This document shows, one piece after another, positions 6,819 through 39,194 of a DNA stretch of 40,771 nucleotides. The number at the start of each line of letters is the position of its first letter. Position 1 is the stretch's first letter. The notes beneath the pieces were generated by a model. The model had not been told where the DNA came from, did not search any database, and saw only the letters and a list, made by a program, of their open reading frames with translations. Position numbers and translations under genes: made by a program. Source of the DNA: Candidatus Aminicenantota bacterium. GTDB lineage: Bacteria; Acidobacteriota; Aminicenantia; Aminicenantales; UBA4085. The stretch covers positions 1-40,771 of the forward strand of contig PLMN01000027.1 in the NCBI GenBank assembly GCA_003141555.1, written 5' to 3'.

Positions 6819-8414
6819 ATGATGCGGCATAAAGACGGATTCGCTCGCGGACGATGGTCCGCCCGCTCGTTTTTCTCCGCGCTTCCCGCGATTCTGGCTC
6901 TCCTCGCGCTCCTAGCCGTTTTGGCCGTCGACGCCGCGGCCCAGGCCCGGCCGAACCTGGCGCTCGCCAGGGTGATGTACAACTCTATGAAGGCGGACGC
7001 CAACCCCAAGGGCGAGCTCAAGGCTCAACTCGACGCCCTCGACAAGGAGCTCGCCGAGGCGAATGCCGCCAGCCGCACGGGCGAAGTCCGCCATCTCCTG
7101 GCCAAGGGCATCGCCCTCCTGTCGAAGCGGGAATGGACGGACACGATCGAGTTCTCGACCTCGCTCGTCCTCCGGGCCGAGGAGACCTACGTCGATCCGG
7201 GGCGGCCGTACGCGGTCCGGCTGGAGCAGATTTACGTTCCCCGCGTCGTGTTGACGGGCTCCCTCACGGTCAAAGCCGCACTCTACAACACGGAACGCTC
7301 CGTCCTGACCGGCCTCCAGCTGCGGGAAAAGGTCAAGGACCTGAGCGTCCGCGAAGGCGTGAGCCGCGACCTGCTCGACGAGCCGTGCCGCATCGATCTC
7401 GACCTCTCGGGTGTCCCGGACGGCGCCTACGCGATCCTGACCTCCGTCTCCGCGAAGGACGCCCACGTGGGCTCGGCCGTGCTCCCCGTCGAGATCAGCC
7501 GGGGGCTGGGCGCCCGGCTGGCCGCGCTCGAATCGGGCTTGAAGGACGTGAAGGGATTCGACGCCCTCCGGGCCGAGGTCCTCTACCCGGCCGACCGCAT
7601 CCGCTGCGTGAACCGCGGCCTGATCGAGATGGGCGCGTTCAAGCTCGAAGCGGAATTGAAGGCCGCCGAGGAGACGCTGGCCGCGCTCAAGGCCGGCCGC
7701 GACCCATTCGCCGGCCGCACGGGCGGCATGAAGCGGCATTATCTCCTGGAGGAGGCGGGCGAGATCATGCCCTATCGCCTCTACGTCCCGACGAAATACG
7801 ACGGCAAAGCCGCCTATCCCATGATCCTGGCCCTTCACGGCCTCGGCGCCACCGAGGATTCGCTGCTCGACGATTACGGCCCGAATTTCATCAGGCTGGC
7901 CGAACAGCACGGCTATATCGTCGCCGCGCCGCTCGGCTACCGCGTGGACGGGGCCTACGGCCGCCCGCTGTTCGAGGCCGACCCGGACGAGGCCCTCCGC
8001 CGCAAGGTGGAGCTGAGCGAGAAGGACATTTTCAATGTCCTGGCCCTGGTCAGGAAGGGCTACAAGATCGACGAATCGCGCATCTTTCTCATGGGCCATT
8101 CCATGGGCGCCATCGGGACGTGGTATCAGGGGGCGAAGCACCCCGAAATCTGGGCCGGCCTGGCCCCGTTCTCCGGCTTCGGAAACCCGGCGACCGTCGC
8201 CGCCATGAAGAATATCCCCGAGTTCGTCGTCCACGGCGACGCGGACCCGACCGTCCCGGTGGCCGGCTCGCGGACCATGGTCGCGGAGATGAAGAAGCTG
8301 GGGGTCGATCACGTCTACATCGAGGTCCCCGGCGGGAACCACCTGAACGTCGTGACCCCGAATCTGGCGGCCATGTTCGATTTCTTCGACAAGCACAAGA
8401 GAAAGATCCCATGA
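6819..8414 (+). CDS. exported alpha/beta-hydrolase (esterase / peptidase-like)
   Basis: Secreted serine hydrolase of the alpha/beta fold, related to dienelactone-hydrolase and PHB-depolymerase-like esterases. Residues 18-42 form a long signal segment ending in 'AAAQA'. Residues 50-300 are a helical and beta-rich domain I do not recognise. The catalytic domain starts near 310: 'MILALHGLG' (335-343) with the oxyanion region, nucleophile S428 in G-H-S-M-G, acid D476 in 'GDADPTVP', and H508 in 'GGNHLN'. Start ATG at 6819 is preceded by AAAGGAG. A second ATG follows immediately (MM). The stop overlaps the next ATG by four bases, so the pair is coupled. Substrate is unknown; a role in degrading esters or peptides outside the cytoplasm is inferred. 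Confidence 0.75.
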   Translation: MMRHKDGFARGRWSARSFFSALPAILALLALLAVLAVDAAAQARPNLALARVMYNSMKADANPKGELKAQLDALDKELAEANAASRTGEVRHLLAKGIALLSKREWTDTIEFSTSLVLRAEETYVDPGRPYAVRLEQIYVPRVVLTGSLTVKAALYNTERSVLTGLQLREKVKDLSVREGVSRDLLDEPCRIDLDLSGVPDGAYAILTSVSAKDAHVGSAVLPVEISRGLGARLAALESGLKDVKGFDALRAEVLYPADRIRCVNRGLIEMGAFKLEAELKAAEETLAALKAGRDPFAGRTGGMKRHYLLEEAGEIMPYRLYVPTKYDGKAAYPMILALHGLGATEDSLLDDYGPNFIRLAEQHGYIVAAPLGYRVDGAYGRPLFEADPDEALRRKVELSEKDIFNVLALVRKGYKIDESRIFLMGHSMGAIGTWYQGAKHPEIWAGLAPFSGFGNPATVAAMKNIPEFVVHGDADPTVPVAGSRTMVAEMKKLGVDHVYIEVPGGNHLNVVTPNLAAMFDFFDKHKRKIP

Positions 8415-10888
8415 GCCAAGACACCGCACCCGCCGCGTCGGCTTCCCCGGCCGCCCCGCGCTTCCTGCCCCTGATCCTCGTCCTCTTCGCCGGGAGCGGC
8501 TGCGCCGCCCTGATCTACGAAGTCGTCTGGCTCCAGCTCCTCCAGTTCGTGATCGGCTCGACGGCCGTGTCGATGGCCGTCCTGCTCGGGACGTACATGG
8601 GCGGCCTGTGCCTGGGGAGCCTCCTCCTCCCCCGCCTCGTCCGCGCGAGCCGCCACCCGCTGCGCGTCTATGCGACGCTCGAGCTCGCGGTCGGGGCGAT
8701 CGGGATCGCGGTCCTGTTCGTGCTCCCCGCCATCGGTTCGATCTATTCGGCCAACGCCGGCCACGGCCTCCTCGGCTTTCTCCTGCGGGGCGCAGTCTGC
8801 GCGGCCTGCCTCCTGCCGCCCACCGCGGCCATGGGCGCCACGCTGCCCGCCCTCGCCCGCTGGGTCGAGACGACGCCGCGCGGCGTTTCGTGGCTCGGGT
8901 TTTTCTACGGCGGCAACACGACCGGGGCGGTTTTCGGCTGCCTCCTGGCCGGCTTCTATCTCCTCCGCGTCCACGATATGGCCACGGCCACATTCACCGC
9001 GGCGGGCATCAACGCCGCGGTCGCGCTGATCGCCCTCGCGGCTGCGGGGCGGCTGATTTACGAGCCGCGCGGCTCCGATTCGGACGGAACGAACGCCGGG
9101 GGAGGCGAAGACACGGGCGCCGCCCCCGACGCCCCTGCCGCCTCCCGCCCACCCCACCCCTGGACGATCTACGTGACGATCGGGCTTTCGGGCCTGACCG
9201 CCCTGGCCGCGGAAGTCGTCTGGACGCGCCTCCTGTCGCTCATGATGGGCGCCACGGTTTACACCTTCTCCATCATCCTGGCCGTCTTTCTGACCGGGAT
9301 CGCGCTCGGCAGTGCGGCCGGCTCGGCCGCCGCCCGCACCTGGAAGAACCCCCGCCTCGCCCTGGCCGCCGGCCAGCTCCTCCTGGCCGGGGCCATCGGC
9401 TGGACGGCATTTCTCATCGGCAAGTCGCTGCCGTTCTGGCCGATCAATCCCGCCCTGTTGCCCGGCCCGGGGATCGGCTTCCAGCTCGACCTGGCCCGCA
9501 GCCTCCTGGCGATCCTGCCCGCGGCCCTGTTCTGGGGCGCGAGCTTCCCGCTGGCCCTGGCCGCAGCCGCGCGCCCCGGCCAGGACGGCGGCCGGCTCGT
9601 GGGGCGGGTCTATGCCGCGAACACCGTCGGGGCCATCGTCGGCTCGATCTGGTTCAGCCTGGTCGTCATCCCCGTTCTCGGCTCCTTCCAGGCCGAGCGC
9701 CTGATGATCGGGCTGGCCGTCGCCGCCGCCCTCGTCGCCGCCGCGCCCCTGCTCCGGGCCAACAAGCGGATCGCGACCTGGTTCGCGCTCGGGACCGCGG
9801 CCGCGGTCTTCCTCCTGGCCGTCCTGCCGCCCGTCCCCTGGCAGCTGGTGGCCTACGGCCGATACATGCCCCAACGGCTCAACGACGGCACCAAGCTGCT
9901 GTTCGAGGGCGAGGGGATGAACTCCTCGGTCGCCGTGACCGAAAACACGGACGCGACGCGCAACTTCCACGTCAGCGGCCGGGTGGAGGCCTCGAGCTCC
10001 GCCCAGGATATGCGCGTCCAGCGGATGCTGGGCCACCTCCCCGCGCTGCTCCACGGCCAGCCCGAGTCCGTGCTCGTCGTGGGCTGCGGGGCGGGCGTCA
10101 CCGCGGGCTCGTTCATCCTTTATCCCGGCGTCAAGCGGATCGTGCTGTGCGAGATCGAGCCGCTCATCCCCAAGGTCGTGGCCAAGTTCTTCGGGCCGCA
10201 GAACTACGACTTCCAGAAAGACCCGCGCGTCGAGATCGTCTACGACGACGCTCGCCACTTCATCCTCACCACCAAAGAGAAGTTCGACGTCATCACCTCC
10301 GACCCGATCCATCCTTGGATCAAGGGCTCGGCGATGCTCTACACGCACGAATATGTGGAGCTCTGCAAGAAGCGCCTGAACCCCGGCGGCGTCGTGGCCC
10401 AGTGGGTCCCCTTCTACGAGAGCACGGTCGCCACGGTCAAAAGCGAGCTGGCGACGTTTTTCGACGTGTTCCCCAACGGGACGGTCTGGAGCAATGACCT
10501 CTCGGGACTGGGCTACGATGTCGTGCTGATCGGAAGCGACGGAGAGATGAAGATCGACATCGACGCGCTCCAGGCCAAGCTCGACAGCGAAGGCTACGCG
10601 CGCGTTACCCGCTCGCTCAAGGACGTGGGACTGGGAGCGGCGGGCTGGCTCCTGGCTACGTTCGGAGGACGGGCCGCGGACCTCGCGCCCTGGCTCCGCG
10701 GGGCGGAGACCAACCGCGACCGCAACCTCAGGCTGCAATACCTGGCCGGCCTGGGGCTCAACAGCCACGACAGCAACCGAACATTCGAAGAGATGTTGAC
10801 TTACGTCAAGTTCCCGGACGGCCTCATCACAGGCTCGCCCGAGCGTATCGCCGCGCTCAAGAAGGCGCTGGGGCTGGAGAAGAAGTAA
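8411..10888 (+). CDS. membrane-fused spermidine-synthase-like protein
   Basis: An 825-residue fusion. Residues about 17-480 hold roughly a dozen or more hydrophobic helices in two halves separated by a Gly/Asp/Ala/Pro-rich linker (about 218-245). Both halves begin with similar motifs (an 'AALIYEVVW' and an 'LAAEVVWTRLLS' helix), as in the membrane half of this family. From about 490 the protein is soluble and resembles spermidine synthase / Rossmann methyltransferase: 'VLVVGCGAG' near 555 is the nucleotide loop, 'CEIEP' near 580 the ribose-binding acid, 'DVITSDPIHPW' near 630 the region of the catalytic aspartate, and 'NPGGVVAQW' near 660. Membrane-fused forms are common in acidobacterial-type genomes, but their product is unproven. 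It overlaps the esterase stop by ATGA and faces the S9 peptidase convergently. Confidence 0.8.
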   Translation: MSQDTAPAASASPAAPRFLPLILVLFAGSGCAALIYEVVWLQLLQFVIGSTAVSMAVLLGTYMGGLCLGSLLLPRLVRASRHPLRVYATLELAVGAIGIAVLFVLPAIGSIYSANAGHGLLGFLLRGAVCAACLLPPTAAMGATLPALARWVETTPRGVSWLGFFYGGNTTGAVFGCLLAGFYLLRVHDMATATFTAAGINAAVALIALAAAGRLIYEPRGSDSDGTNAGGGEDTGAAPDAPAASRPPHPWTIYVTIGLSGLTALAAEVVWTRLLSLMMGATVYTFSIILAVFLTGIALGSAAGSAAARTWKNPRLALAAGQLLLAGAIGWTAFLIGKSLPFWPINPALLPGPGIGFQLDLARSLLAILPAALFWGASFPLALAAAARPGQDGGRLVGRVYAANTVGAIVGSIWFSLVVIPVLGSFQAERLMIGLAVAAALVAAAPLLRANKRIATWFALGTAAAVFLLAVLPPVPWQLVAYGRYMPQRLNDGTKLLFEGEGMNSSVAVTENTDATRNFHVSGRVEASSSAQDMRVQRMLGHLPALLHGQPESVLVVGCGAGVTAGSFILYPGVKRIVLCEIEPLIPKVVAKFFGPQNYDFQKDPRVEIVYDDARHFILTTKEKFDVITSDPIHPWIKGSAMLYTHEYVELCKKRLNPGGVVAQWVPFYESTVATVKSELATFFDVFPNGTVWSNDLSGLGYDVVLIGSDGEMKIDIDALQAKLDSEGYARVTRSLKDVGLGAAGWLLATFGGRAADLAPWLRGAETNRDRNLRLQYLAGLGLNSHDSNRTFEEMLTYVKFPDGLITGSPERIAALKKALGLEKK

Positions 10889-13472: not shown

Positions 13473-13511
13473 AACAACAGAGTTAGAAGACTGATTTCAC
13501 GTATCGGGAGA

Positions 13512-14036
13512 ATGAAGATCGTGACCGGAAACAAAAGACGGGCGGCGCTCACGAGGGGCTTCTCGGCCCTCGAGATGATCGTCGTCGTCGCCCTCCTGGG
13601 CATCGCCGTGGGCGAGGCGATCCCCCAGATCCGGAATGCCCTCGAGATAAGAGCCCTGGAGGGCGCGGCGCGTGACATCCACCAGGCCTTGCAGACGGCC
13701 AAATGGAAGGCGACGGCGGACAAAATCAATTATCGGGTCAGGTTCTCCGTCTCCGGGACGACAACGTCCTACATCGTCGAGCGGCAGCTCACGGCCGGGA
13801 CTTGGACGACCGCGCCCAGCTCCGTCCTGAAATCCATTCCGAACAAGCTGACCGTCACCCTGACCCTGCCCTCGACGAAGGACGTGATTTTCACTCCCAC
13901 GGGCTTCGTCGACAGCTACGACAGCACCAAGAATTCGATCGTCATCTCGAGCGCGAAGCTCTCGCTCCTGCGCCAGCCGGCCAACCGGACGATCCGGTTC
14001 TACGCCGGCGGGTCGATCCAGTATCTGAAGAGCTAG
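13512..14036 (+). CDS. FimT/GspH-type minor pseudopilin
   Basis: First gene of a type IV pilus minor-pilin operon. Minor pilins are processed in the inner membrane by prepilin peptidase and prime pilus assembly. The 174-residue protein has a class III leader: a basic stretch ending R-G at 15-16, then F17-S-A-L-E21 with the key Glu at +5, and a hydrophobic helix (17-40). The C-terminal half is beta-rich without cysteines, like FimT/GspH. The start at 13512 has GGGAG only one base upstream, so a GTG three codons later is an alternative; this does not affect the cleavage site. Nine bases separate it from the next gene. Confidence 0.85.
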   Translation: MKIVTGNKRRAALTRGFSALEMIVVVALLGIAVGEAIPQIRNALEIRALEGAARDIHQALQTAKWKATADKINYRVRFSVSGTTTSYIVERQLTAGTWTTAPSSVLKSIPNKLTVTLTLPSTKDVIFTPTGFVDSYDSTKNSIVISSAKLSLLRQPANRTIRFYAGGSIQYLKS

Positions 14037-14045
14037 GGATTGCGC

Positions 14046-14507
14046 ATGCGGCGAAGAATCCGAACCCCGCGAGCCCCGATAGGGCGGCAGGCGGGCTTCA
14101 CCTTCATCGAAGCTCTCCTCAGCATCGTTCTCCTCGGCGGCGCCGTCATCGGGCTCGCCCAACTGTTCCTGCTGTCCGTCCGGAACAACCAGCACGGCGG
14201 GGAGATCAGCCAGGCGATGTATCTCGGCCAGCAGCAGATCGACTACCTCAGGACCCTGACCGGGAGCGAGCTCGGGAGCTTCCCCTCGAGCGCCCGCGGC
14301 GAATCGTCCGACGAGGCGATCGACGTCAACCATGACGGGCTGAGTGAATTCCGGCGCCTGACCCAGGTCACGGTGTCCGGGACCACATACACCGTCAAGG
14401 TGCTGGTCTTTCCCCCGAGGGAGATCGCCACGTCGGCGTCCGTTCTCTACGCCGACCCGGCCGGCCACTTGGTCCGAGCGAACATGAACACGGTGATCAG
14501 CCGATGA
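14046..14507 (+). CDS. pilV: PilV-type minor pilin
   Basis: A 153-residue type IV pilin-like protein. The leader is 'RRRIRTPRAPIGRQAG', cleaved between G17 and F18, giving F-T-F-I-E with Glu at +5, followed by a hydrophobic helix with 'LLGGAVIGLAQLF'. 'MYLGQQQIDYLR' after the helix is typical of PilV proteins. I place the start at the ATG at 14046, seven bases after an AGGGAT ribosome site; a TTG two codons earlier is possible. It overlaps the following gene by four bases (ATGA). Confidence 0.8.
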   Translation: MRRRIRTPRAPIGRQAGFTFIEALLSIVLLGGAVIGLAQLFLLSVRNNQHGGEISQAMYLGQQQIDYLRTLTGSELGSFPSSARGESSDEAIDVNHDGLSEFRRLTQVTVSGTTYTVKVLVFPPREIATSASVLYADPAGHLVRANMNTVISR

Positions 14508-15619
14508 GCCGCCTCCGCCTCGCGATCCCCCCGGCGCCGCGCCGGCGACAGGCCGGCTTCACGATCATCGAAGTCCTGATCGCCAGCCTGATCATGGCCG
14601 CCGTCGTCATCGGGGCCCTGTCGATCTACGTCAAGACCAACAAGACCGCGTCCGACCAGCAGCAATACGTCCAGATCCAGCAGGATGTCCGGGCTGCCAT
14701 TTACTACGTTTCCCGCGATGTCCGCATGGCCGGGGCGGGCCTGCCTTCGAACTACTTCCAGGCGGCGATCCAGGGCACGGACAACGAGGATCAGGGCGGA
14801 ACCGTCAAGCCCGACCGCATCCAGATCATGGGCAACATGGAGGCGCCGTTCAGCCTGACCATCCAGAGCTGCAACGGCAGCGGAACCAAGATCACCCTGG
14901 CCGACCATAGCTTCGAGCAATACCCATACCCCGACAGTTACTATGTCGGCCAGATTTGCCTGCTCCTCCCCAAGTCCAGTTCCACGTGCACGGGAGCGGC
15001 CGTCCGCCAGATCACGGGGGTCATTCACAACTCCGGGGGGACGAACGAAGCGTTCCAGTTCTCCCACGGCCAAGCCAAGGACATCAATCCCCCGGGCGGG
15101 CTCAAAGATGTCTGCGCGGACACCGAATACGTCGGCGGGACGGTCCTTTTCGCCGACTTCTACGAGTATTGGCTGGACGTCACCGGCAATTACACCGGGC
15201 TCACGGCGGGCACGAACGGCTACATCGGCGGCGGGACGGCCGGCGTCCTCTACCAGACGCACGACAACACGTACAGCCCCATCGCCATGAACATCGAGGA
15301 CTTCCAGGTCCAATACGACGGCAACTTCGACGGGGATTCCTCCGGGACGCTCGACGGGTTCACGGACTGGAACAGCTCCTGGACGGCGACCCAGATCGCC
15401 AGCATCCGCCGGGTCCGGATCTGGGTGGTGGGCAAGACCCCGAGCCGATTCACCAGCATCTCGGCCGCGCCCCAGTCCAGCGGCTCGATCTACCGCCACC
15501 CGGCCATCGCCAACTCGGCGGCCGGAACGACCGACGACTGGTGCAAGCGGTTCGTGCTGGAGACGACGTCCAACATCCGGAACCTGTCCCTGGGGATATA
15601 CAACACGGGAGTCCGATAA
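14504..15619 (+). CDS. pilW: PilW-type minor pilin
   Basis: A 371-residue minor pilin of PilW type, large for a pilin as expected for this class. The leader ends R-R-R-Q-A-G18, and the mature form starts F-T-I-I-E-V with Glu at +5. The post-helix segment 'DVRAAIYYVSRDVRMAGAG' is the PilW hallmark (helix ending in R-D-x-R-x-A-G). The rest is beta-rich with aspartate/glycine-rich loops ('DGNFDGDSSGTLDG') that could bind calcium. It overlaps both neighbours by 1-4 bases, indicating strict coupling. Confidence 0.85.
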   Translation: MSRLRLAIPPAPRRRQAGFTIIEVLIASLIMAAVVIGALSIYVKTNKTASDQQQYVQIQQDVRAAIYYVSRDVRMAGAGLPSNYFQAAIQGTDNEDQGGTVKPDRIQIMGNMEAPFSLTIQSCNGSGTKITLADHSFEQYPYPDSYYVGQICLLLPKSSSTCTGAAVRQITGVIHNSGGTNEAFQFSHGQAKDINPPGGLKDVCADTEYVGGTVLFADFYEYWLDVTGNYTGLTAGTNGYIGGGTAGVLYQTHDNTYSPIAMNIEDFQVQYDGNFDGDSSGTLDGFTDWNSSWTATQIASIRRVRIWVVGKTPSRFTSISAAPQSSGSIYRHPAIANSAAGTTDDWCKRFVLETTSNIRNLSLGIYNTGVR

Positions 15620-16200
15620 TGCGCGCGCGGCGATGGGAAAGCGGGGCGGGGCTGATCATCGTGATCCTGATCATCGCCTTCCTGATCGCGATCGGCATCC
15701 CCCTCCTGGTGCTGACCGAGACCGGCCCCAAGGTCTCGGGCAGCTTCCGCCTCCACGACGAGGCGCTCAACGCCGCCGAGGCGGGCTTCGACGCCGCGCG
15801 GCGGGTCATCGAGAACCATTTCATCGCGAACGAATGGGTCAACTTCACCGGCCACTACGTCACCCAGCCGACCAATATCGATACCCCGCTCGACTCGGGC
15901 GGAAATCCCAATGCGGCCTATTTCCGCCGGCAGACCGACCAGGCGCTGCTCTCCGCCTTCGACACGAACGGGGACGGGACGCCGGAAGTCTCCAATCTCC
16001 TCTTCTTCCAGCAGACGTTCGCCCTGGACGGCCAAGGCAACACCGACACCCGCTGGGCCTATACGGTCTTCCTCATCGACGACGAAGCCGGAACGGGGAC
16101 GACGGACCCGTCGGACGCGCTCATGGTTTGCATCGGCGTCGTTCGGGCCGGGACCCGCATCCTGGACTCGGTCCGCGTGGAGGTTAAAGTTGGCCTATAA
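15619..16200 (+). CDS. pilX: PilX-type minor pilin
   Basis: A 193-residue protein beginning at an ATG that shares one base with the pilW stop (TAATG). The N-terminus 'ESGAGLIIVILIIAFLIAIG' is the PilX pattern: a short basic leader, Gly, a hydrophobic helix and no Glu at +5. It is followed by 'NAAEAGFDAARR' (about 51-62), the conserved AEAG motif of PilX proteins. An acidic loop 'DTNGDGTPE' resembles an EF-hand-type calcium loop. It overlaps the start of the pilY1-like gene by 11 bases. Confidence 0.8.
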   Translation: MRARRWESGAGLIIVILIIAFLIAIGIPLLVLTETGPKVSGSFRLHDEALNAAEAGFDAARRVIENHFIANEWVNFTGHYVTQPTNIDTPLDSGGNPNAAYFRRQTDQALLSAFDTNGDGTPEVSNLLFFQQTFALDGQGNTDTRWAYTVFLIDDEAGTGTTDPSDALMVCIGVVRAGTRILDSVRVEVKVGL

Positions 16201-19200
16201 ACATTCATGGGCGGCGGCAAACCCGGGCCGGCGCGGCCTGCTGACCCTCGTCCTGGGCGTTTTGGCCTGCTCCCTCGCGGTCCAGGTTCTCTTCCCCCAG
16301 CAGTCCTGCAACACATACACCGGCGTCTTTTCGGACACCTTCGCCGACACATCCAACATCGACCTGACCAAGAGCGCGGCCAAGTTCTGGTACAACGACA
16401 AGACCTCGCCCCAGAGCATCGTGACCATGAACAAGCAGGGGGCTCAGTTTGCCGTCTCCAACCCCGCCTACGTTCCGAGCTGGGTCAATACCGTCGCCGC
16501 CGGCGACTTCGACCTCGACGGCTGGCCGGACTACGTCGCCTCGAGCAGCAGCTTCAGCAACGTCCTGGCCTTCGTTAGGAACATGGGCGGGCAGGGCCAA
16601 GTCGGGACCTTCAAGGTCAGCCAGTGGATCGACGGCAGCGCCGGCGACTCCACCGGCTGGCCGACGCTGGGCGTGGGCGGGACGGCCATCGACACGACCG
16701 GCAACTGCGGCATGACCGCCGGCGATTACGACGGCGACGGCGACATCGATTTCCTGTTCATCGCCTCCCCCGATTCCGCTCCCTACACGCCCAAGCGGGT
16801 CTGGCTCTACCGGAACAACCTCATCACCAACGGGGTGAACACGGGCGTCCTGAGCTTCACCAAGATCGACCTGACTTCGGCCTGGGCGTCCGCCCTCGTG
16901 GGCATCGCCTGGTCCTCGACGATGATGACCTCGATCGACATCGACGGCGACGGCGACATCGACATCATCATGGGCAACTGCGCGGGCAACGTCCTCAAGT
17001 TCACGAACACCGGCAACAAGGCGATCAACGCCTCGACCTTCACCGTCGAGACGACCCCGATCATCGACACGTCCTGGGGGCTCCGGGGCGTGAGCACGGT
17101 CTCGGTCGCGGACTTCAACAACGACGGGTTCCTGGACATCGTCCTCGGGAGCGTCAGCTACGGTTCGCTGCTGTATTACCGGAACGACGGCCACGGGATT
17201 TTCAACCTCTACGCCACGTATAGCGACCCGTCCGGAAATACCAGCAACAACCTCTTCGACGGCGCCGCCACGGCCACGATCGTGGGCGACTTCGACGGGG
17301 ACGGCTGGGTGGACCTCGTCGTCGGGTGCGACAACTGGAACTACGACGCGGGCGCCATCGGCGGCCAGATCTATTTCTTCAGGAATGTCGGCGGCGATTT
17401 CGTCCAGACGCTTATCTACAGCGGCCATTCCAAAACCCCTCAGCTCGAGGACATCGACCTCGGCCTGGCCTTCGACTACAACAACGACGGCCTGCTCGAC
17501 TTCCTGATGGCCGACGGCAACGACTCCCAGAGCTACGTCGTCTTCACCAACCAGACGGCCAACGTCTACAACATCACCGGGACCGCAACCTCGGCCAACG
17601 TGACGCCGACCCTGTCCTCGGCCCAGTACGCCATCACCCAGGTCCAGGCCACGAGCCTGACCCAGCGCTATCTCGGGAGCTCACCGACGGGTCTGACCCT
17701 GACCTACTACGTCTCCAACAACAACGGCAAGACCTGGGAGCTCTACGCGACGTATTCGGGGAGCGGGATCGCCAACGTCACCAACCAGACCGTCCACAAC
17801 TTCAGCTCCTTCGGGACCGCCCTCCGCTGGAAGGCCGTCTTCGGCGCGGTGGCGGACGCCATCACGGGATTCGCCAACGCGTCCTACGAGACGCCGCTCA
17901 TCGATCAGGTCCAGCTCACCTACACCTACGTCGACCGGAAGGAATATTCCCGGACCTCGGACGCGGAAACGACGATCGTCGTGAGCGGCCAGACCCGGAA
18001 GATGCTCGTCTCGGCCACGTTCATGTTCCCCGGCTATCAAGGCCAGCTCCGGTGCTACGACGTCACCAGCCTGAGCGCCTTGAACGTCGCCTATTCGGCG
18101 CTCCAGACGGTCTCGTCGTCGAGCACTTCGACCACGGGCGGCCGCGTGCTGACGTCGGGAGTGACGCTGGCCTGGGACGCCGGCCAGCTCCTCGCCAGCC
18201 AGAGCTCCGACAGCCGGACGATTTACTGCGGCTATCGCGCTTCTTCGGGGGCGACCCTCCAAAGGAAGGACTTCACGACGGCCAACGCCTCGACGCTGGC
18301 CTCGCTCCTCGGCGACGTCAACAGCGACAACGCGGGGCTGATCGACTTCATCCGGGGCAAGGGCCGGGACTGGAAGCTGGGCGACATCCAGCACAGCAAT
18401 CCCGTCATCGTAGGCCCGCCGAGCGGCAACGCGACCCTCATGGGAACGGGCTACTCGACCTTCGTCACAACCTGGGCGGCGCGGCAGAAGGTCATTTTCA
18501 TGGGGGCCAACGACGGCATGCTCCACTGTTTCGACACCGCGACCGGGACCGAGCTCTGGGCGTTCATCCCCTATAACCTCCTGCCCAAGCTGAAAAACCT
18601 GTCCATCTACGACAGCACGACCGGACAGCGCACGCTCAGCAACGACTCCTACGTCGACGGAACCCCGTCCGTGGCCGACGTCCAGATCAACGGGGCCTGG
18701 AAGACCATCCTGATCTGCGGCCAGGGCAAGGGCAAAGGCAGCTCGGTCGGCGGCGGGACCAACTACTATTTCGCCCTGGACGTGACCGACGTCACCAATC
18801 CCCAGGTCGTGTGGGAAATCACGGCCAGCTCTATGGGCGAGACCTGGTCGGTCCCGGCCATCGGCCGGACCCACTATTCCACGGCGCCGTGGACCGCCTT
18901 CATGGGCTCGGGATACAACAACACCGGCTCGGGCACGGTGGGCAATGTCTTCAACGCCGTTCGGGTGGATACGGGGGCGACCCTCAAGACGTTCACCGCC
19001 AGCAACGTCAACACGGCCTCGGGCATCGCCAAGCCCTATACCGACATCCCCAACTCGATCCCCGGCTCGCCGACGGCCCTGGACACCGACAGCGACGGGA
19101 ACGTGGAGTCCGTTTATGTCGGCGACCTCGACGGCCGCCTCTGGAAGGCGAACGTGTCGAACTCCAGCACGAGCAATTGGACGTTCACGGCCATCTACAC

Positions 19201-19819
19201 CGACCGGCTCAACTATCCGATCATCACCCAGCCCGCGGTCTGGCTCGATACCCTCACTTCGGGCGCCCCGCCCCGGATCTACTTCGGCACGGGCGGCGAC
19301 GACAACGCGCCGACCGACCGCAATTACTCCTTTATCTGCCTCAAGGACCTGACGGCGCCCGCCGTTGAATGGTTCATCGGCGACCCGACGGACCTCGGCC
19401 TCTCCTCCTCCATCGACATGGGGACGTTTGGGGTCGGCGAGAAAGTCTGGGCCGATCCGGTGATCTCGGACAATATCGTCTACTTCAGCACGCTGACGGG
19501 CAGCATCGAGAACGTCAACCCCTGCGTGAATCTGGCGAATGCCGGCTACCTCTACGCCCGCTACATTCAGACCCTGTCCGGCGGCACGCTGGGAACCACG
19601 GCCCTCAAGGGCATGGGCAACACCACCACGCCAAGCGTCCAGCTGACGAGCAAAGCCAGGAGGGCGGTCACGCTCGGAGAGCGCCAGTCGGGCGGCGGGA
19701 CGACCAAGCGGGAGGTTTACATCCAGGAATACGACTCCAGCATCCAGCGCCTGGAACAGGGCACGGGCAGCTTCCTGAGGATCCTCTGGTGGCGGGAAGT
19801 CTACAAGATTATCCGATGA
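16190..19819 (+). CDS. pilY1: PilY1-type pilus tip adhesin with extra FG-GAP propeller
   Basis: A 1209-residue exported protein expected at the pilus tip, where PilY1 proteins mediate adhesion and regulate retraction through calcium. The start is a TTG with GGAGG seven bases upstream; no ATG fits. A signal segment spans about 17-35. The N-terminal half carries six D-x-D-x-D-G-like calcium loops spaced about 60-70 residues apart (near 106, 179, 250, 308, 366 and 429), each in an FG-GAP/VCBS-type repeat, which suggests an integrin-like propeller. A middle beta-rich part follows. From about 730 is the PilY1 propeller: 'FMGANDGMLHCFDTATG' near 769, 'YVDGTPSVADV', and the calcium loop D965-T-D967-S-D969-G-N-V-E973, equivalent to the known PilY1 site. 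Confidence 0.85.
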   Translation: MAYKHSWAAANPGRRGLLTLVLGVLACSLAVQVLFPQQSCNTYTGVFSDTFADTSNIDLTKSAAKFWYNDKTSPQSIVTMNKQGAQFAVSNPAYVPSWVNTVAAGDFDLDGWPDYVASSSSFSNVLAFVRNMGGQGQVGTFKVSQWIDGSAGDSTGWPTLGVGGTAIDTTGNCGMTAGDYDGDGDIDFLFIASPDSAPYTPKRVWLYRNNLITNGVNTGVLSFTKIDLTSAWASALVGIAWSSTMMTSIDIDGDGDIDIIMGNCAGNVLKFTNTGNKAINASTFTVETTPIIDTSWGLRGVSTVSVADFNNDGFLDIVLGSVSYGSLLYYRNDGHGIFNLYATYSDPSGNTSNNLFDGAATATIVGDFDGDGWVDLVVGCDNWNYDAGAIGGQIYFFRNVGGDFVQTLIYSGHSKTPQLEDIDLGLAFDYNNDGLLDFLMADGNDSQSYVVFTNQTANVYNITGTATSANVTPTLSSAQYAITQVQATSLTQRYLGSSPTGLTLTYYVSNNNGKTWELYATYSGSGIANVTNQTVHNFSSFGTALRWKAVFGAVADAITGFANASYETPLIDQVQLTYTYVDRKEYSRTSDAETTIVVSGQTRKMLVSATFMFPGYQGQLRCYDVTSLSALNVAYSALQTVSSSSTSTTGGRVLTSGVTLAWDAGQLLASQSSDSRTIYCGYRASSGATLQRKDFTTANASTLASLLGDVNSDNAGLIDFIRGKGRDWKLGDIQHSNPVIVGPPSGNATLMGTGYSTFVTTWAARQKVIFMGANDGMLHCFDTATGTELWAFIPYNLLPKLKNLSIYDSTTGQRTLSNDSYVDGTPSVADVQINGAWKTILICGQGKGKGSSVGGGTNYYFALDVTDVTNPQVVWEITASSMGETWSVPAIGRTHYSTAPWTAFMGSGYNNTGSGTVGNVFNAVRVDTGATLKTFTASNVNTASGIAKPYTDIPNSIPGSPTALDTDSDGNVESVYVGDLDGRLWKANVSNSSTSNWTFTAIYTDRLNYPIITQPAVWLDTLTSGAPPRIYFGTGGDDNAPTDRNYSFICLKDLTAPAVEWFIGDPTDLGLSSSIDMGTFGVGEKVWADPVISDNIVYFSTLTGSIENVNPCVNLANAGYLYARYIQTLSGGTLGTTALKGMGNTTTPSVQLTSKARRAVTLGERQSGGGTTKREVYIQEYDSSIQRLEQGTGSFLRILWWREVYKIIR

Positions 19820-21885: not shown

Positions 21886-24435
21886 TCAGCGCCCGGCGCT
21901 CCCCCGGGGATCCAGGGCCAGCGATATCTGGTCCTTCAGGTCGTCGAGGTGGATCCGGGTGATCTTGTCCCCGGCCAGGCCGGCGGCGGCCCCCAGAATG
22001 CCCTGGAGAGTCTTGAGCTCGGCCCGGATGGCCCCGCGGCTGTCGTCGCGCAGGCCCGCGGCGGCACTCACGGGGGCGGCCGCGCCCGCGGCGGCCGGCG
22101 CCGGCGAGAGGCGGGCGACGAGCAGGTCGACATACGAGCGCTGGAGGTTGCGGCGGAACGCGTCGATCTTGACCGAATCGGCCGAAAGCTCGGTGAAGAT
22201 CCCCGCCCGCAGATCGGCCAGGAGCTGGACGATGGTATACGCCTTGTCGCCCAGGATAGCCTCATGCTCCTGGAGACGGGTCAGGCGCGCCGCGGCGAGC
22301 ACGCCGGCCAGCACGCGGGATTGGAGGGCCGCCAGGCGGGCCTGGCCGCTCGTCGGCTCGATCTTTCGCAGGATGTCGACCGGCGCGAGCCACGTGGGCG
22401 TTTTGAACACGTTCTCGTTCAGGAACAGGACGGCTTCCTGCTGGCGGGTCTTGGCGAGCGGGGTGAACCGTACCCCCGGCGCGAGGCCGGCCTTCGGCTC
22501 GCTGTCATAGCCGCCGACTACGTTGGCCACATGCCCCATCTCGAGGGCGACCTGGTTCCAGACCGCCGTGTAGATATGATCGAGGAGCTCAAAGTCCTCG
22601 CCCGGCTTGAGGACGGCGCCCGGCACCATGTCCATCACCCGCTTGAGGTTCTTCAGGCCGAGCCCGGTCGCTTTCACCGCGTCGATGTCGCCCACGGCCT
22701 CGGTCTCCTCGCCGGGGTCGCTGCCCCGCGCGCCCGCCGTGCTGAAGCGCAGCCAGGGGGTCGTGTCCTGGACCTTGCACAATTCGTTGAGGGCGGGCTT
22801 TTCATCGTCCGGGGTCTTGGCCGAGGGGATGGGCGTATAGCCCCACTTGATGGCGAAGATGTCGTAGGGGCCGATCTTGGGAATCAGGTCCTTGGGATCG
22901 ATGTTGTCCTCGGGCTGGGCCACGTAGTTGAAACGGCTGTAGTCCATGATCGAGGGCACATGGCTGTTTTTCTTGACCCACTCCTTGTCGCGGATCTTCT
23001 CGATGGGATAATTGGCGCTGGCCTTGAAGTTGTGGGGCAGGCCGAGGGAGTGGCCGACCTCGTGGGTGACGATGAAGACCAGGATGTCGCCCATGACCTC
23101 GTCGGGGATGGGCAGGGTCTTGACCCGGGGATCGAGGGGCGCGACCTGGGTCCAGTACCAATCGCGGGCGAGCTGCTGGACATTGTGGTAGATCTCGACG
23201 TCGGCCCCGATGATCTCGCCGCTCCGCGGGTCGGAGACATGGGGGCCCATGGCGTTGGCCGTGGTCGACGGCACCCACCGGATCACGGAGTAGCGCGCAT
23301 CGTCGGCGCTCCAGTCGGGATCCTGCTCGGGCGTCGGGGGGTCCTTGGCCTGGATGGCGTTCAGGAACCCGGCCTCCTCGAAGGCGGGCTTCCAGGCCTC
23401 GATGGCCTTTTTGATGTAAGGAACCCACTGTTTCGGCGTGGCGGGATCCACGTAGAAGACGATGGGCTTGACCGGCTCGCTCTTCGCGGCGCCCGGGTTT
23501 TTCTTTTCAAGACGCCACCGGGCGATGAAGTCCTGGGCTTTCACCTCCTGGTCGCGGCGGCTGTAATCGATGTGGTTGTGGGTGAAGTAGCCCACCCGGT
23601 TGTCCATCAGGCGGCCCATCATGGGCTTCTCGGGGAGCTTGACGAACGAATAGTGGACGCCGGCCGTCGGGCTCGGCGGGGAGGGGACCATATCCGCGTA
23701 TTGCGGCGGAAAGCCCGGGGACAGCTGCGCCGGCTTGGGATTGAACGTCTGGGTGGCTTCGACGTTGATGTTGATCGGGTAGGCCCGGACCTTGTCGAGG
23801 AACGTCCGGGAGGCGTCGAGGCTCGTGCCGGCGACGACCTTCTTCACCGGGATCTCGTTCACGTCGCTGGTGAACAGGCGCGTGGCGTCGATGATCGGCG
23901 AGCCGTCCTTGACGTCTTTGGCCCAGGCCTCGACCGGGAAGGCCATCATGATCGTGGCCGTGTTCATAGCCTCGACGGCCCGGCTGATGGGGTTGCTCGG
24001 ATCGGCGATATTGGCATAGGTCTCGATGCGGAGCAGCACTTTCGCCTCGCGGAGCTCCCAGCGGACAACCATGTCCTCCACGGACTCGCCGGGATAGCTC
24101 GAGCCGGATGGGCTCTTCATGATCTGGACCACCAACAGCTGGTCCTTGCCCAGCTCCTCCTTGGGGATCTCGAAGAGAACCTTGCCTTTGTTGGTGTGGA
24201 CCTTGAACAGGCCCGCCTGCGTCTTGAACTCTGGGGTCACGACCTTATCGTAGGGCTTGGGCTCTCCCTCGGGCGGCTTGGCGGCCGGCTCGGGGGGCTT
24301 GACCTGGGCCGCGTCCGGCTTGGCCGGGGCTTGAGCGGGCGCCTTGGGATCCTGGGGCGGGGTCTGGGGTTTGTCTTGGGCGAATGATCCGACCGCCAAC
24401 AGGGCGATCAGGAGAACGGGCAGCCAGCGTTTCAT
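21886..24435 (-). CDS. exported zinc-dependent metalloprotease (DUF5117/DUF5118, Met-zincin type)
   Basis: A large secreted metallopeptidase of the family carrying DUF5118, DUF5117 and a metzincin-type catalytic domain. The ATG at 24435 has GGAGG with good spacing; a longer frame from 24480 overlaps the promoter. The 849-residue protein has a signal peptide (1-19), a Pro/Ala/Lys-rich linker (about 20-60), then a beta-rich N-terminal domain with 'LFKVHTNKGKVLFEIP'. The zinc site is H458-E-V-G-H462-S-L-G-L-P-H468. 'SIMDYSRFNYV' about 45 residues later supplies the Met-turn. The C-terminal part is helical. It probably degrades extracellular or periplasmic protein. It lies 209 bases upstream of RRM gene 2 on the same strand. 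Confidence 0.9.
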   Translation of the reverse strand: MKRWLPVLLIALLAVGSFAQDKPQTPPQDPKAPAQAPAKPDAAQVKPPEPAAKPPEGEPKPYDKVVTPEFKTQAGLFKVHTNKGKVLFEIPKEELGKDQLLVVQIMKSPSGSSYPGESVEDMVVRWELREAKVLLRIETYANIADPSNPISRAVEAMNTATIMMAFPVEAWAKDVKDGSPIIDATRLFTSDVNEIPVKKVVAGTSLDASRTFLDKVRAYPININVEATQTFNPKPAQLSPGFPPQYADMVPSPPSPTAGVHYSFVKLPEKPMMGRLMDNRVGYFTHNHIDYSRRDQEVKAQDFIARWRLEKKNPGAAKSEPVKPIVFYVDPATPKQWVPYIKKAIEAWKPAFEEAGFLNAIQAKDPPTPEQDPDWSADDARYSVIRWVPSTTANAMGPHVSDPRSGEIIGADVEIYHNVQQLARDWYWTQVAPLDPRVKTLPIPDEVMGDILVFIVTHEVGHSLGLPHNFKASANYPIEKIRDKEWVKKNSHVPSIMDYSRFNYVAQPEDNIDPKDLIPKIGPYDIFAIKWGYTPIPSAKTPDDEKPALNELCKVQDTTPWLRFSTAGARGSDPGEETEAVGDIDAVKATGLGLKNLKRVMDMVPGAVLKPGEDFELLDHIYTAVWNQVALEMGHVANVVGGYDSEPKAGLAPGVRFTPLAKTRQQEAVLFLNENVFKTPTWLAPVDILRKIEPTSGQARLAALQSRVLAGVLAAARLTRLQEHEAILGDKAYTIVQLLADLRAGIFTELSADSVKIDAFRRNLQRSYVDLLVARLSPAPAAAGAAAPVSAAAGLRDDSRGAIRAELKTLQGILGAAAGLAGDKITRIHLDDLKDQISLALDPRGSAGR

Positions 24436-24475
24436 GAAATCCTCCTCGTTGGACGATGATCCGATGAAGGCAGAG

Positions 24476-24505
24476 AACATAGCACCTGCGGCGAACGCCT
24501 GTCAA
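24476..24505 (-). promoter_or_regulatory. promoter of metalloprotease gene
   Basis: On the minus strand TTGACA (24505-24500), an 18-base spacer, TATGTT (24481-24476). The leader would be about 35 bases. Confidence 0.6.
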
Positions 24506-36780: not shown

Positions 36781-36810
36781 TTGACACGTATGGCCGGCCG
36801 GGAATAGTAT
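36781..36810 (+). promoter_or_regulatory. promoter of GGDEF-fusion gene
   Basis: TTGACA (36781-36786), 18 bases, TAGTAT (36805-36810); initiation close to 36817 leaves a very short leader with a GGGGGG ribosome site before the ATG at 36827. Confidence 0.55.
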
Positions 36811-36826: not shown

Positions 36827-38731
36827 ATGGTGGTTCAAAAAAGATCGCCGGCGAATCCAAAGAGCGGACACCTGAGGAAGAGGCTTTTAACCCTGATTTC
36901 TTCCGCGGTCGAACAAGACAAGGGGTTGAAAAAAGCCCTCCGGATGATCCAGCCGGTTTTTAAATTCAACGGCGTCGTCGCGCTTCATTTCAATGAACAG
37001 GATAATTCTTTCCGGATCATCGAGCAGACCGGCCTGACAACGAAACAACGTCGGGGCTTAAATACCATACTTACCTGTGTCTCCGACTTTGTAAGCCAAA
37101 GCAAGAAAACCCGCCGCCTCACCAGAAGCAACGGCGCCGTTATCATTTTCACGGAAAGCGAGGTTCGGAGAAACGGAATCCATTCGGTTTTTCTGTATTT
37201 CCTCGTCAAATCCGATCGAGTCATCGGCGCCCTGGTCTTTTGCCGGAACGAAGGTCAGTTCGATAAAGCCTCCTTCAAAATATTGGATTCCATCGCTTCC
37301 CTTATGGCCCTCCTCGTCGAAAACAAATTTTATAAGGAAAAAGCGCGCAGCATCGCCGGTTTCGTCAATCTTGACGGACTGACGGGACTCTACAACCATC
37401 GATATTTCCAAGAAAACCTCTCCAATGAACTGCTCAAATCCCAGCGGTTCAATTATCCGGTCTCGCTCTTGATGATCGACGTCGACCATTTCAAGAACTA
37501 CAACGACAAATACGGTCATCCCCAAGGCGATTCCGTATTGAAGGAGATTACGAGGATCGCGAAGGAGACCATCCGGGCGTATGACGTCCCGACCCGATAC
37601 GGCGGCGATGAGTTCGCGGTGATCCTGCCCTATGCCGACCATGATCAGGCTCTGCGGGTGGCGGAGCGCGTCAGAAAAAGCGTGGGGGCCCGAATGTTCC
37701 CGGGCCGGGGCGTTCACGAGCGGCTGCGGTTGACGGTGAGCATCGGGGTGGCCACCTACCCCATCAACGCAAAAGCCAAGACCGATCTGATCGACAGGGC
37801 GGATCAGGCGCTGTATCTGGCCAAGTCGGAAGGACGCAATAGAGTTTGCCTGTCGCTGGCCAGCTCCTCGGATCTTATCAGAGTCGGATTTTGTCCGTCC
37901 GCGTTCACGAGCTCGTATTACGGGGATATCCAGGCGGGATTGGAAGACGTGATCAAGGAAATCAAGAGAATCGAATTATCGGTTCGCGCGCCGGAACAGG
38001 AATCCGATTACCATATGCTGAAGCGAATTTTCCAATACTTCGCGGACGAGAAACTGGACGCGGTGGCGGTCTGCACCCAGTCCAAGAAGGCCATCCAAGA
38101 CCTGAAAATTCTGCACCAAGCCAAAATCCCCGTATTCTTTTTCAACGTCCCTGAAGAAATCGCTGATCGCACGATCTGCTCGTACGTGGGGTATGACCAG
38201 CGGGAAGCCGGGAGAACCGTGGGGAGGTATCTGGCAAGGCTTATAAGACGAAAAGGGAAAATCGGCCTTCTGGAAGGGCTCCCGGAGCCGACGAACCGAC
38301 AAAGAGTGGCCGGATTCAGGGAAGCGATCCAGGCGAATCCGGGGATGAGTATCATCGCCGCGGAACGAGCCGATTGGGTACGGAGCAAGGCCCAGACGGT
38401 GACGGAGCGCATCCTGAAGCAACATGGAGATCTCGACGCGATTTTCGCGGTCAACGACGAGATGGCCTTGGGCGCGATCGAGGCGGCGAAGGCCATGGGC
38501 AAGCTGAATGAGATCTTTATTATCGGACTCGACGGGACCAAAGAGGCGCTTGAGTCGATCAGAGACGGCCGGCTTACGGCGACGCTGAATACCAACCCGC
38601 GCGAAATGGGCCGAATCCTGTTGCGGACGATCGTTCGCGGCCTCATCAAGGAAGAAAAGATCGACAGTCAGATCCTATCGCCGATCAACATCGTGGACTT
38701 GGAAAACGTCGATCAGGCGATGAACCCTTAA
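36827..38731 (+). CDS. GAF-like - GGDEF diguanylate cyclase - periplasmic-binding-protein fusion
   Basis: A 634-residue protein with no signal peptide or transmembrane helix, hence cytoplasmic. Residues about 15-170 look like a GAF-type sensor ('FKFNGVVALHFNEQ', 'VIGALVFCR', 'LDSIASLMALLVENK'). The GGDEF domain spans about 180-345: D218 binds metal, G259-G-D-E-F263 is an intact active site, and R250-A-Y-D253 five residues before it is the inhibitory I-site, so c-di-GMP synthesis with product feedback is expected. Residues about 350-634 match type-1 periplasmic sugar-binding / LacI-type ligand domains ('AKIPVFFFNVPE', 'YVGYDQREAGRTVG', 'DAIFAVNDEMALGAIEAAK', 'IFIIGLDGTKEAL', 'DGRLTATLNTNP'). 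The order suggests a small ligand in the cytoplasm controls the cyclase. This is unusual, since such domains normally sit outside. Confidence 0.9.
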   Translation: MVVQKRSPANPKSGHLRKRLLTLISSAVEQDKGLKKALRMIQPVFKFNGVVALHFNEQDNSFRIIEQTGLTTKQRRGLNTILTCVSDFVSQSKKTRRLTRSNGAVIIFTESEVRRNGIHSVFLYFLVKSDRVIGALVFCRNEGQFDKASFKILDSIASLMALLVENKFYKEKARSIAGFVNLDGLTGLYNHRYFQENLSNELLKSQRFNYPVSLLMIDVDHFKNYNDKYGHPQGDSVLKEITRIAKETIRAYDVPTRYGGDEFAVILPYADHDQALRVAERVRKSVGARMFPGRGVHERLRLTVSIGVATYPINAKAKTDLIDRADQALYLAKSEGRNRVCLSLASSSDLIRVGFCPSAFTSSYYGDIQAGLEDVIKEIKRIELSVRAPEQESDYHMLKRIFQYFADEKLDAVAVCTQSKKAIQDLKILHQAKIPVFFFNVPEEIADRTICSYVGYDQREAGRTVGRYLARLIRRKGKIGLLEGLPEPTNRQRVAGFREAIQANPGMSIIAAERADWVRSKAQTVTERILKQHGDLDAIFAVNDEMALGAIEAAKAMGKLNEIFIIGLDGTKEALESIRDGRLTATLNTNPREMGRILLRTIVRGLIKEEKIDSQILSPINIVDLENVDQAMNP

Positions 38732-38782: not shown

Positions 38783-38822
38783 AAAAAAAAGGGCGGACCT
38801 CCCCTTGCGGAGAGATCCGCCC
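38783..38822 (-). terminator. intrinsic terminator of RRM gene 3
   Basis: On the minus strand a long stem (GGGCGGA...TCCGCCC closing, then CTC/GAG and CC/GG with single mismatches, at 38822-38791) with a GCAA loop is followed by eight U residues (38790-38783). Confidence 0.85.
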
Positions 38823-38903
38823 GATTGTCCTTGGTTGAAGAACGGGTCCGCGCTTCCGGCGATATCACCGGAGGCCGGTTCCGCGTTCCGCGGACGCGTC
38901 CGG

Positions 38904-39194
38904 TCAGAACCGGTTGCGGCCGCCGCCGAATCCGCCGCCGCGCGGGCTGTCGGTCTTGGGCTTGGCTTCGTTGACCTTGAGGGCCCGGCCCTTGAGTTCG
39001 ACGCCGTTGACCGCCCCGATGGCCTTCATGGCCTCTTCCCGGTTCGGCATCTCGACGAAGCCAAAACCGCGGGACTGGCCGGTGAGCTTGTCCGTGATGA
39101 CGGCGGCCTTTTCGACCATCCCGTGGGCCTGGAAAGCCCCGCGGAGATCTTCCTCGGTCACGTTGAACGACAGGTTTCCAACATAGATATTCAA
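38904..39194 (-). CDS. RRM-domain RNA-binding protein, paralogue 3
   Basis: A 96-residue single-RRM protein with RNP2 'IYVGNL' (3-8) and RNP1 'RGFGFVEM' (42-49), and a Gly/Arg tail ('SPRGGGFGGGRNRF'). It is very close to the two paralogues 17.5 kb away. The start codon is TTG, where both paralogues use ATG, but it has the best ribosome site (AAAGGAGACGAGT). It lies between the 5S rRNA gene and a strong terminator, has its own leader with the conserved element (39195-39318), and might also receive read-through from the rRNA operon. Confidence 0.9.
   Translation of the reverse strand: MNIYVGNLSFNVTEEDLRGAFQAHGMVEKAAVITDKLTGQSRGFGFVEMPNREEAMKAIGAVNGVELKGRALKVNEAKPKTDSPRGGGFGGGRNRF

Follow-up and report, generated by a model that had tools for sequence, protein, structure and literature searches.

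The type-I periplasmic-binding-protein (PBP) fold is used intracellularly by the regulators of the LacI/GalR group, where the output is DNA binding. Among c-di-GMP enzymes, a 2022 census found domains of the PBP clan to be common and called them periplasmic; only SBP_bac_3, the domain present in RmcA, had been studied, and the type-I Peripla_BP domain appeared only as a putative sensor, with no experiment behind it (PMC8846402). Sugar control of c-di-GMP is described there for EIIA-Glc/PdeS of Vibrio cholerae, and in that case it is indirect, namely through PTS phosphorylation of a partner acting on a phosphodiesterase (PMC8846402). Here, we describe a GAF-GGDEF-PBP fusion gene located in the window, by which we mean the whole 40,771-nucleotide stretch of DNA that was analysed. 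On balance, we take its product, the window protein, to be a diguanylate cyclase that is soluble and cytoplasmic and is controlled by a hexose-like ligand inside the cell. In the open-access literature, no description of a cytoplasmic GGDEF-PBP fusion was found: the parts are known, and it is their arrangement, i.e. a cytoplasmic, C-terminal Peripla_BP_4 domain, a GGDEF output and siblings in sugar operons, of which we found no report.

The window protein resembles several of the described systems in part and departs from each of them. As in the LacI/GalR regulators and RbsR, a type-I PBP core would serve as an intracellular small-molecule sensor; unlike them, the window protein lacks a helix-turn-helix (no HTH match in Pfam, the N-terminus having a GAF fold), has GGDEF as its output, fits Peripla_BP_4 best and carries its PBP domain C-terminally, behind the cyclase. 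With RbsB, MglB and GanP it shares the fold across the full domain, but it has no signal peptide and is fused to a cyclase. RmcA likewise places a PBP-clan ligand domain within a c-di-GMP enzyme, whereas the PBP domain of the window protein is cytoplasmic, lies C-terminal to GGDEF and belongs to the type-I sugar group. In the Leptospira GAF-GGDEF cyclase Lcd1, as here, a GAF domain and a helix precede GGDEF, but the window protein has an extra PBP domain behind the cyclase. Finally, sugar state feeds c-di-GMP in EIIA-Glc/PdeS as it would in our case, except that the window protein would have its sugar receptor built into the cyclase. The features of the gene, with the evidence for each in brackets, are as follows.

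36781..36810, plus strand: sigma-70-like promoter, TTGACA-18-TAGTAT, directly upstream of the fusion gene (consensus scan, 10 of 12 matches)
36827..38731, plus strand: GAF-GGDEF-PBP fusion gene, 634 residues, single, without a same-strand partner (ORF and Pfam)
36860..37324, plus strand: N-terminal GAF domain, residues 12-166 (AlphaFold model, Foldseek, weak Pfam)
37265..37366, plus strand: long GAF-to-GGDEF helix, a typical signalling helix, residues 147-180 (structure models)
37367..37849, plus strand: GGDEF diguanylate cyclase domain, residues 181-341 (Pfam, NCBIfam TIGR00254)
37574..37585, plus strand: inhibitory I-site RAYD, residues 250-253 (sequence)
37601..37615, plus strand: active-site motif GGDEF, residues 259-263 (sequence)
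37877..38716, plus strand: type-I PBP (Peripla_BP_4) domain, about residues 351-630 (Pfam, Foldseek, VIA-align)
38144..38146, plus strand: pocket residue N440 (invariant Asn in all fusions; MglB Asn91; Asp in RbsB and the solo relatives)
38375..38377, plus strand: pocket residue W517 (invariant; MglB Trp183, sugar-stacking)
38531..38533, plus strand: pocket residue D569 (invariant; MglB Asp236, RbsB Asp215)

The fusion appears to be a single gene, both of its flanking neighbours, a CAP-domain gene and an RRM gene, lying on the opposite strand and being followed by 5S/23S rRNA. The promoter-like sequence in front of it is only suggestive of a promoter of its own, about 1.3 such sites being expected by chance per 3 kb. 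The stretch 38791-39194 comprises the RRM-domain gene, which encodes an RNA-binding protein (38904-39194, minus strand, beside the 5S/23S rRNA), and a strong terminator-like hairpin with a 14-bp stem and a run of eight T.

In the GGDEF domain (match at residues 181-339, Pfam E 1.7e-48; TIGR00254, NCBIfam, 5e-54), the cyclase motif is present as RYGGDEF and the I-site R250-A-Y-D253 stands intact five residues upstream of GGDEF. D218, N226, D235, K333 and R337, judged against the near-invariant columns of a 38-sequence alignment, are all kept as well, and by its residues the domain is predicted to be catalytically intact. Behind it, Peripla_BP_4 matches at 353-604 (Pfam E 2.7e-47) over positions 1-252 of the 258 in the profile, i.e. 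as a complete two-lobed domain (residues 350-634), with weaker matches to the LacI-type Peripla_BP_1 and Peripla_BP_3 in Pfam and a match to RbsR in NCBIfam. Foldseek aligned the model of this domain along its full length with binding proteins for ribose, arabinose and glucose/galactose (TMt about 0.85), VIA-align gave Z of 30-33 and an rmsd of 1.9-3.7 Å against sugar-binding proteins over most of the domain, and the inositol-binding protein 4irx is also among its structural matches. By sequence, the GAF domain of the window protein is sub-threshold (Pfam E 0.009-0.02); the N-terminal 180 residues modelled alone (pLDDT 82.6, pTM 0.78) match the solved GAF domains 5w10 and 3ci6 in Foldseek, with the GAF domain of the Lcd1 cyclase among the best, and the sibling L136 gives a GAF_2 match at E 2e-5. 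The AlphaFold model of the whole chain has a mean pLDDT of 84.9 and a pTM of 0.51, and because of the latter the arrangement of the domains in it is uncertain. The intact GGDEF and I-site, the complete type-1 PBP-like domain, the GAF-like domain in front and, as described next, the lack of a signal or membrane helix had all been part of the original prediction, and all of them held.

A scan of the window protein found no signal peptide and no hydrophobic N-terminus, and a Kyte-Doolittle scan of the whole protein found no 19-residue stretch resembling a membrane helix, the highest mean, 1.63, belonging to a GAF beta strand (121-139) that contains charged residues. In the model, the last GGDEF residue is close to 342 and the PBP domain opens with a strand at 351, and a linker of approximately 10 residues leaves no room for a helix to cross a membrane between the two domains. 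Diguanylate cyclases use GTP. Since the cyclase needs GTP and the short linker has no membrane helix, the PBP domain must be cytoplasmic, which is a stronger argument than the earlier one from the missing signal. Solo PBP relatives from other genomes of the phylum (L109-L112, L114 and L116) have signal-peptide-like starts, unlike the fusions, with such starts being noted only for those solo relatives whose N-termini were read.

What kind of ligand would such a domain bind? In RbsB, ribose is contacted by Asn13, Phe15, Phe16, Asp89, Arg90, Arg141, Phe164, Asn190, Asp215 and Gln235 (PMC2630998), and in MglB, which binds glucose or galactose, Asn91, Arg158 and Asp236 form hydrogen bonds with the sugar, while the rings of Phe16 and Trp183 are stacked against it (PMC5101532). 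Compared with RbsB, Asn13, Asp89, Arg90 and Gln235 are not kept in the window protein (S362, N440, V441 and T589), and Asp89, Asp215 and Gln235 are kept in the solo PBPs of the phylum. In RbsB numbering, all fusion members have Asn in place of Asp89 (N440) and Trp in place of Phe164 (W517), Gln235 is represented by Thr, Ala or Gly, Ser103 by Tyr or Phe, and Phe16 by Tyr (Y365); Y365, N440, W517 and D569 are common to the fusion members. The comparison with MglB is closer in some respects. Namely, its Asn91, Arg158, Trp183, Asn211 and Asp236 correspond to N440, R493, W517, N543 and D569 of the window protein, with Tyr replacing Phe16, and the strand end FFN is common to the fusion PBPs and MglB. 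On the other hand, Asp14, Lys92 and Asp154 of MglB have no equivalents in the pocket of the window protein (S362, V441 and T489), and for this reason hexose binding is not assured; in two fusion members, the position of R493 is occupied by Met. N440 is the telling change, since the Trp also occurs in solo PBPs. The invariant pocket columns (3 of 10) are not significantly enriched relative to the rest of the domain (p about 0.15); the argument rests on the identity of the kept residues and not on their number. The pocket of the fusion family is neither degenerate nor simply ribose-like, the change from RbsB being toward MglB. The two refuters that the original prediction had named, a hidden membrane segment and a degenerate pocket, were thus both tested and neither was found, and its LacI-like logic of intracellular sensing is supported by a PBP domain that is cytoplasmic and has a conserved pocket.

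Turning to the distribution of the architecture, a scan of the genome collection gave one relative spanning both domains (L001/P0002, 35% identity over 174-632). It comes from a MAG labelled 'Clostridia', a label that is doubtful because the genome, G337, falls in a phylum with six genomes in the collection. G337 contains further full or partial fusion members as well as fragments, and the related G338, from the same small phylum, contains five members. Altogether, among the 1,693 genomes counted, the fusion is found only in the source genome (G000), G337 and G338, in line with the rarity originally suspected. No further fusion was found in 59 relatives and 297 genomes of the source's own phylum, elsewhere in its class (the other 141 of 142 genomes, including one other genome of the genus), in 50 diverse genomes, or in samples of five other phyla with 9 to 345 genomes each, in one of which the domains were also searched reversed; in the large samples, few candidates were scored per genome, and absence there is not proof. 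Phage and viral contigs encoded no close relative, with the solo-PBP profile scan giving two PBP loci, and among the 5,000 best-scoring plasmid records none had a single place covering 80% of the query. The long-looking plasmid matches in Acetoanaerobium (PAS-GGDEF-hemerythrin) and Salinivibrio were rejected as alignment overruns past ordinary cyclases. The GGDEF-PBP architecture is, in other words, rare and not unique, and its true phylogenetic range is probably wider than what we found.

The members fall into two classes. Those of class 1 combine a GAF-like N-terminus with an intact active site and RxxD, the motif being RYGGDEF in the window protein and L129, RYGGEEF in L136 and RYGGEEI in L137. 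In class 2, the PBP domain is complete throughout, but the members with a preserved 5' end (L128, L134 and L138; L130 is cut by the contig end) have no GAF domain, and the active site is broken in L128, L130, L134 and L138. In L138, the active-site motif is gone and the I-site is kept as RFED. A 72-residue stretch (L143:3078-3293, G337:C35) that matches only the C-terminal end of the fusion-family PBP, without GGDEF, looks like a remnant or pseudogene. When the nine fusion PBPs were placed in a tree together with fetched solo PBPs and E. coli RbsB, they grouped as a single clade (100/100), and the eight fusion GGDEFs did likewise (100/97) in a tree with 66 other GGDEF domains, in which the bootstrap had not quite settled. 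As both domain trees give one fusion clade, a single origin of the fusion is most likely, with the intact cyclase apparently as the ancestral state. The two trees conflict on one point, in that the window PBP is sister to that of L138 (98/91), whereas the GGDEF domain of L138 is grouped on a long branch with the other degenerate copies. The active site may therefore have been lost twice, or the grouping may reflect long-branch attraction. As for the source genome, the fusion gene has a GC content of 54% against 62.6% for the window and a GC3 of 69% against 79-90% in two other window genes, which, together with its absence from the rest of the class, suggests that it was acquired laterally.

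The copy in the window has no adjoining sugar genes. Among the siblings, L138 (L185) has galE on one side and galK on the other, within a plus-strand run, lacZ-galT-galE-X-galK, that is uninterrupted and whose gaps measure tens of bases. A signal-peptide-like start is present in the LacZ of this operon. As an entity of its own, the stretch L185:585-8936 (G338:C250) is a Leloir operon that encloses a cyclase-dead GGDEF-PBP with a kept I-site, and the protein is possibly a sugar and c-di-GMP co-receptor. Because its GGDEF is dead, the gal-operon context supports the sensor and not the cyclase output. Elsewhere, the end of a ROK sugar-kinase gene and L136 (L183) overlap, and L132 (L144) is preceded by genes for a sodium-solute symporter and for a ROK kinase. 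Downstream of L129 (L140) come a GH2 enzyme, in which an exo-glucosaminidase Ig domain is present, and NagB, and a GH116 gene is found 4 kb downstream of L130. L128, L134, L137 and L139 adjoin mur/fts genes, a radical SAM gene, dnaK and murC. As a raw count, sugar-catabolism genes stand beside 4 of the roughly 9 placeable siblings, one of these being inside the Leloir operon, and about half of the copies have as neighbours dnaK, murC, genes of the mur/fts cluster or others not linked to sugars. Judged from gene content, this context is the strongest of the independent hints that the ligand is a sugar.

Taken together, the following mechanism can be proposed. The C-terminal PBP (Venus flytrap) domain would read a small intracellular ligand, most likely a free, imported hexose-like sugar, which would enter unphosphorylated, as the symporter, ROK kinase and GalK next to siblings suggest. 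Closure of the PBP lobes would then change the contact between the paired GGDEF domains in a dimer and in this way turn c-di-GMP synthesis on or off, with the GAF domain and its signalling helix as a second input and feedback by the product through the intact I-site. A sensor located C-terminal to GGDEF is an uncommon order. That the PBP domain persists in paralogs without GAF and active site argues for ligand reading as the conserved function. The parts of this proposal differ in strength: we find it likely that the ligand is a sugar, and equally likely that it controls the cyclase, but that the sugar is a hexose of the galactose/glucose type is a tentative suggestion. Similarly tentative is a more general possibility, namely that we are dealing with a distinct family of sugar receptors that act inside the cell and drive c-di-GMP through a LacI-like flytrap, a family which has been duplicated and retuned per sugar within a genome, and whose cyclase-dead, GAF-less paralogs have been kept in matching sugar operons as sugar-binding partners or receptors. 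If true, this would constitute a direct link from metabolite to c-di-GMP without membrane receptors or the PTS. With a sugar pocket of its own, a soluble cyclase would join the intracellular sugar level to c-di-GMP in one protein, would be directly assayable in vitro and would be simple enough for a sugar-to-c-di-GMP biosensor. What is more, the set of siblings would amount to a natural experiment, in which a cyclase fusion decays into a cyclase-dead sensor.

Would a ligand other than a sugar explain the data equally well? The same architecture and logic could serve for an AI-2-like furanose, a nucleoside, inositol or another polyol, and we note that 4irx, an inositol-binding protein, is among the structural matches and that the Asp-Arg pair and hinge Gln of RbsB are replaced in the fusions. 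The AI-2 receptors LuxP and LsrB, too, are in Peripla_BP_4 (PMC12268683). However, the siblings adjoin lacZ/galT/galE/galK, ROK kinases and NagB, and the key pocket residues match those of MglB, and we consider such a ligand unlikely. It could also be argued that the PBP domain is a module for dimerisation or partner binding and that the switching is done by GAF and signalling helix, as in the GAF-GGDEF cyclase Lcd1. The cores of the LacI family do dimerise, and GGDEF domains are usually regulated by a GAF domain plus helix placed immediately ahead of them; yet it is the PBP domain that all paralogs keep, and class 2, having lost both GAF and active site, retains the pocket. This makes the role of a mere module rather improbable, and we continue to favour control of the cyclase by a hexose-like ligand that the PBP domain reads.

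Two further readings concern the gene in its present genome. Its absence from the other 141 genomes of the class that were searched, including the genus mate, and its low GC could mean that it is a laterally acquired and possibly non-functional orphan. This we regard as quite improbable, as its 634 codons contain no frameshift or stop and every catalytic residue is kept; with only 33-50% identity to the nearest kin, frame and sites must have been maintained over a long time, although not necessarily in the source host. The original prediction had, in addition, connected nutrient state to surface behaviour through the PilY1/minor-pilin operon of the same region. Its nutrient half has gained independent support, with siblings found in sugar-catabolism operons that the original prediction could not have seen. 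As to the surface half, c-di-GMP often controls type IV pili, and PilY1 and minor-pilin genes are indeed on the same contig, but PilY1 is 17 kb away at 15911-19819, genes on the other strand intervene, and pilus genes are not among the genes read in the sibling neighbourhoods examined. On account of distance and orientation we have rejected this link, which we hold to be very improbable, and keep to a nutrient input by way of the PBP domain.

Several other genes were recorded along the way. The stretch 13500-19819 of the window holds the minor-pilin genes (N_methyl/PilW-like at 14504-15619) and, after them, the gene of the PilY1-like protein, which has 1302 residues and FG-GAP repeats. At 21886-24480, on the minus strand, an 864-residue protein carries the domains DUF5118, DUF5117 and DUF4953 (Met-zincin). 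Finally, a 1344-residue protein encoded at 6854-10888 has a spermine/spermidine-synthase domain near its C-terminal end, and a protein matching MFS and spermine-synthase is encoded near a fusion member in L182 (892-3432).
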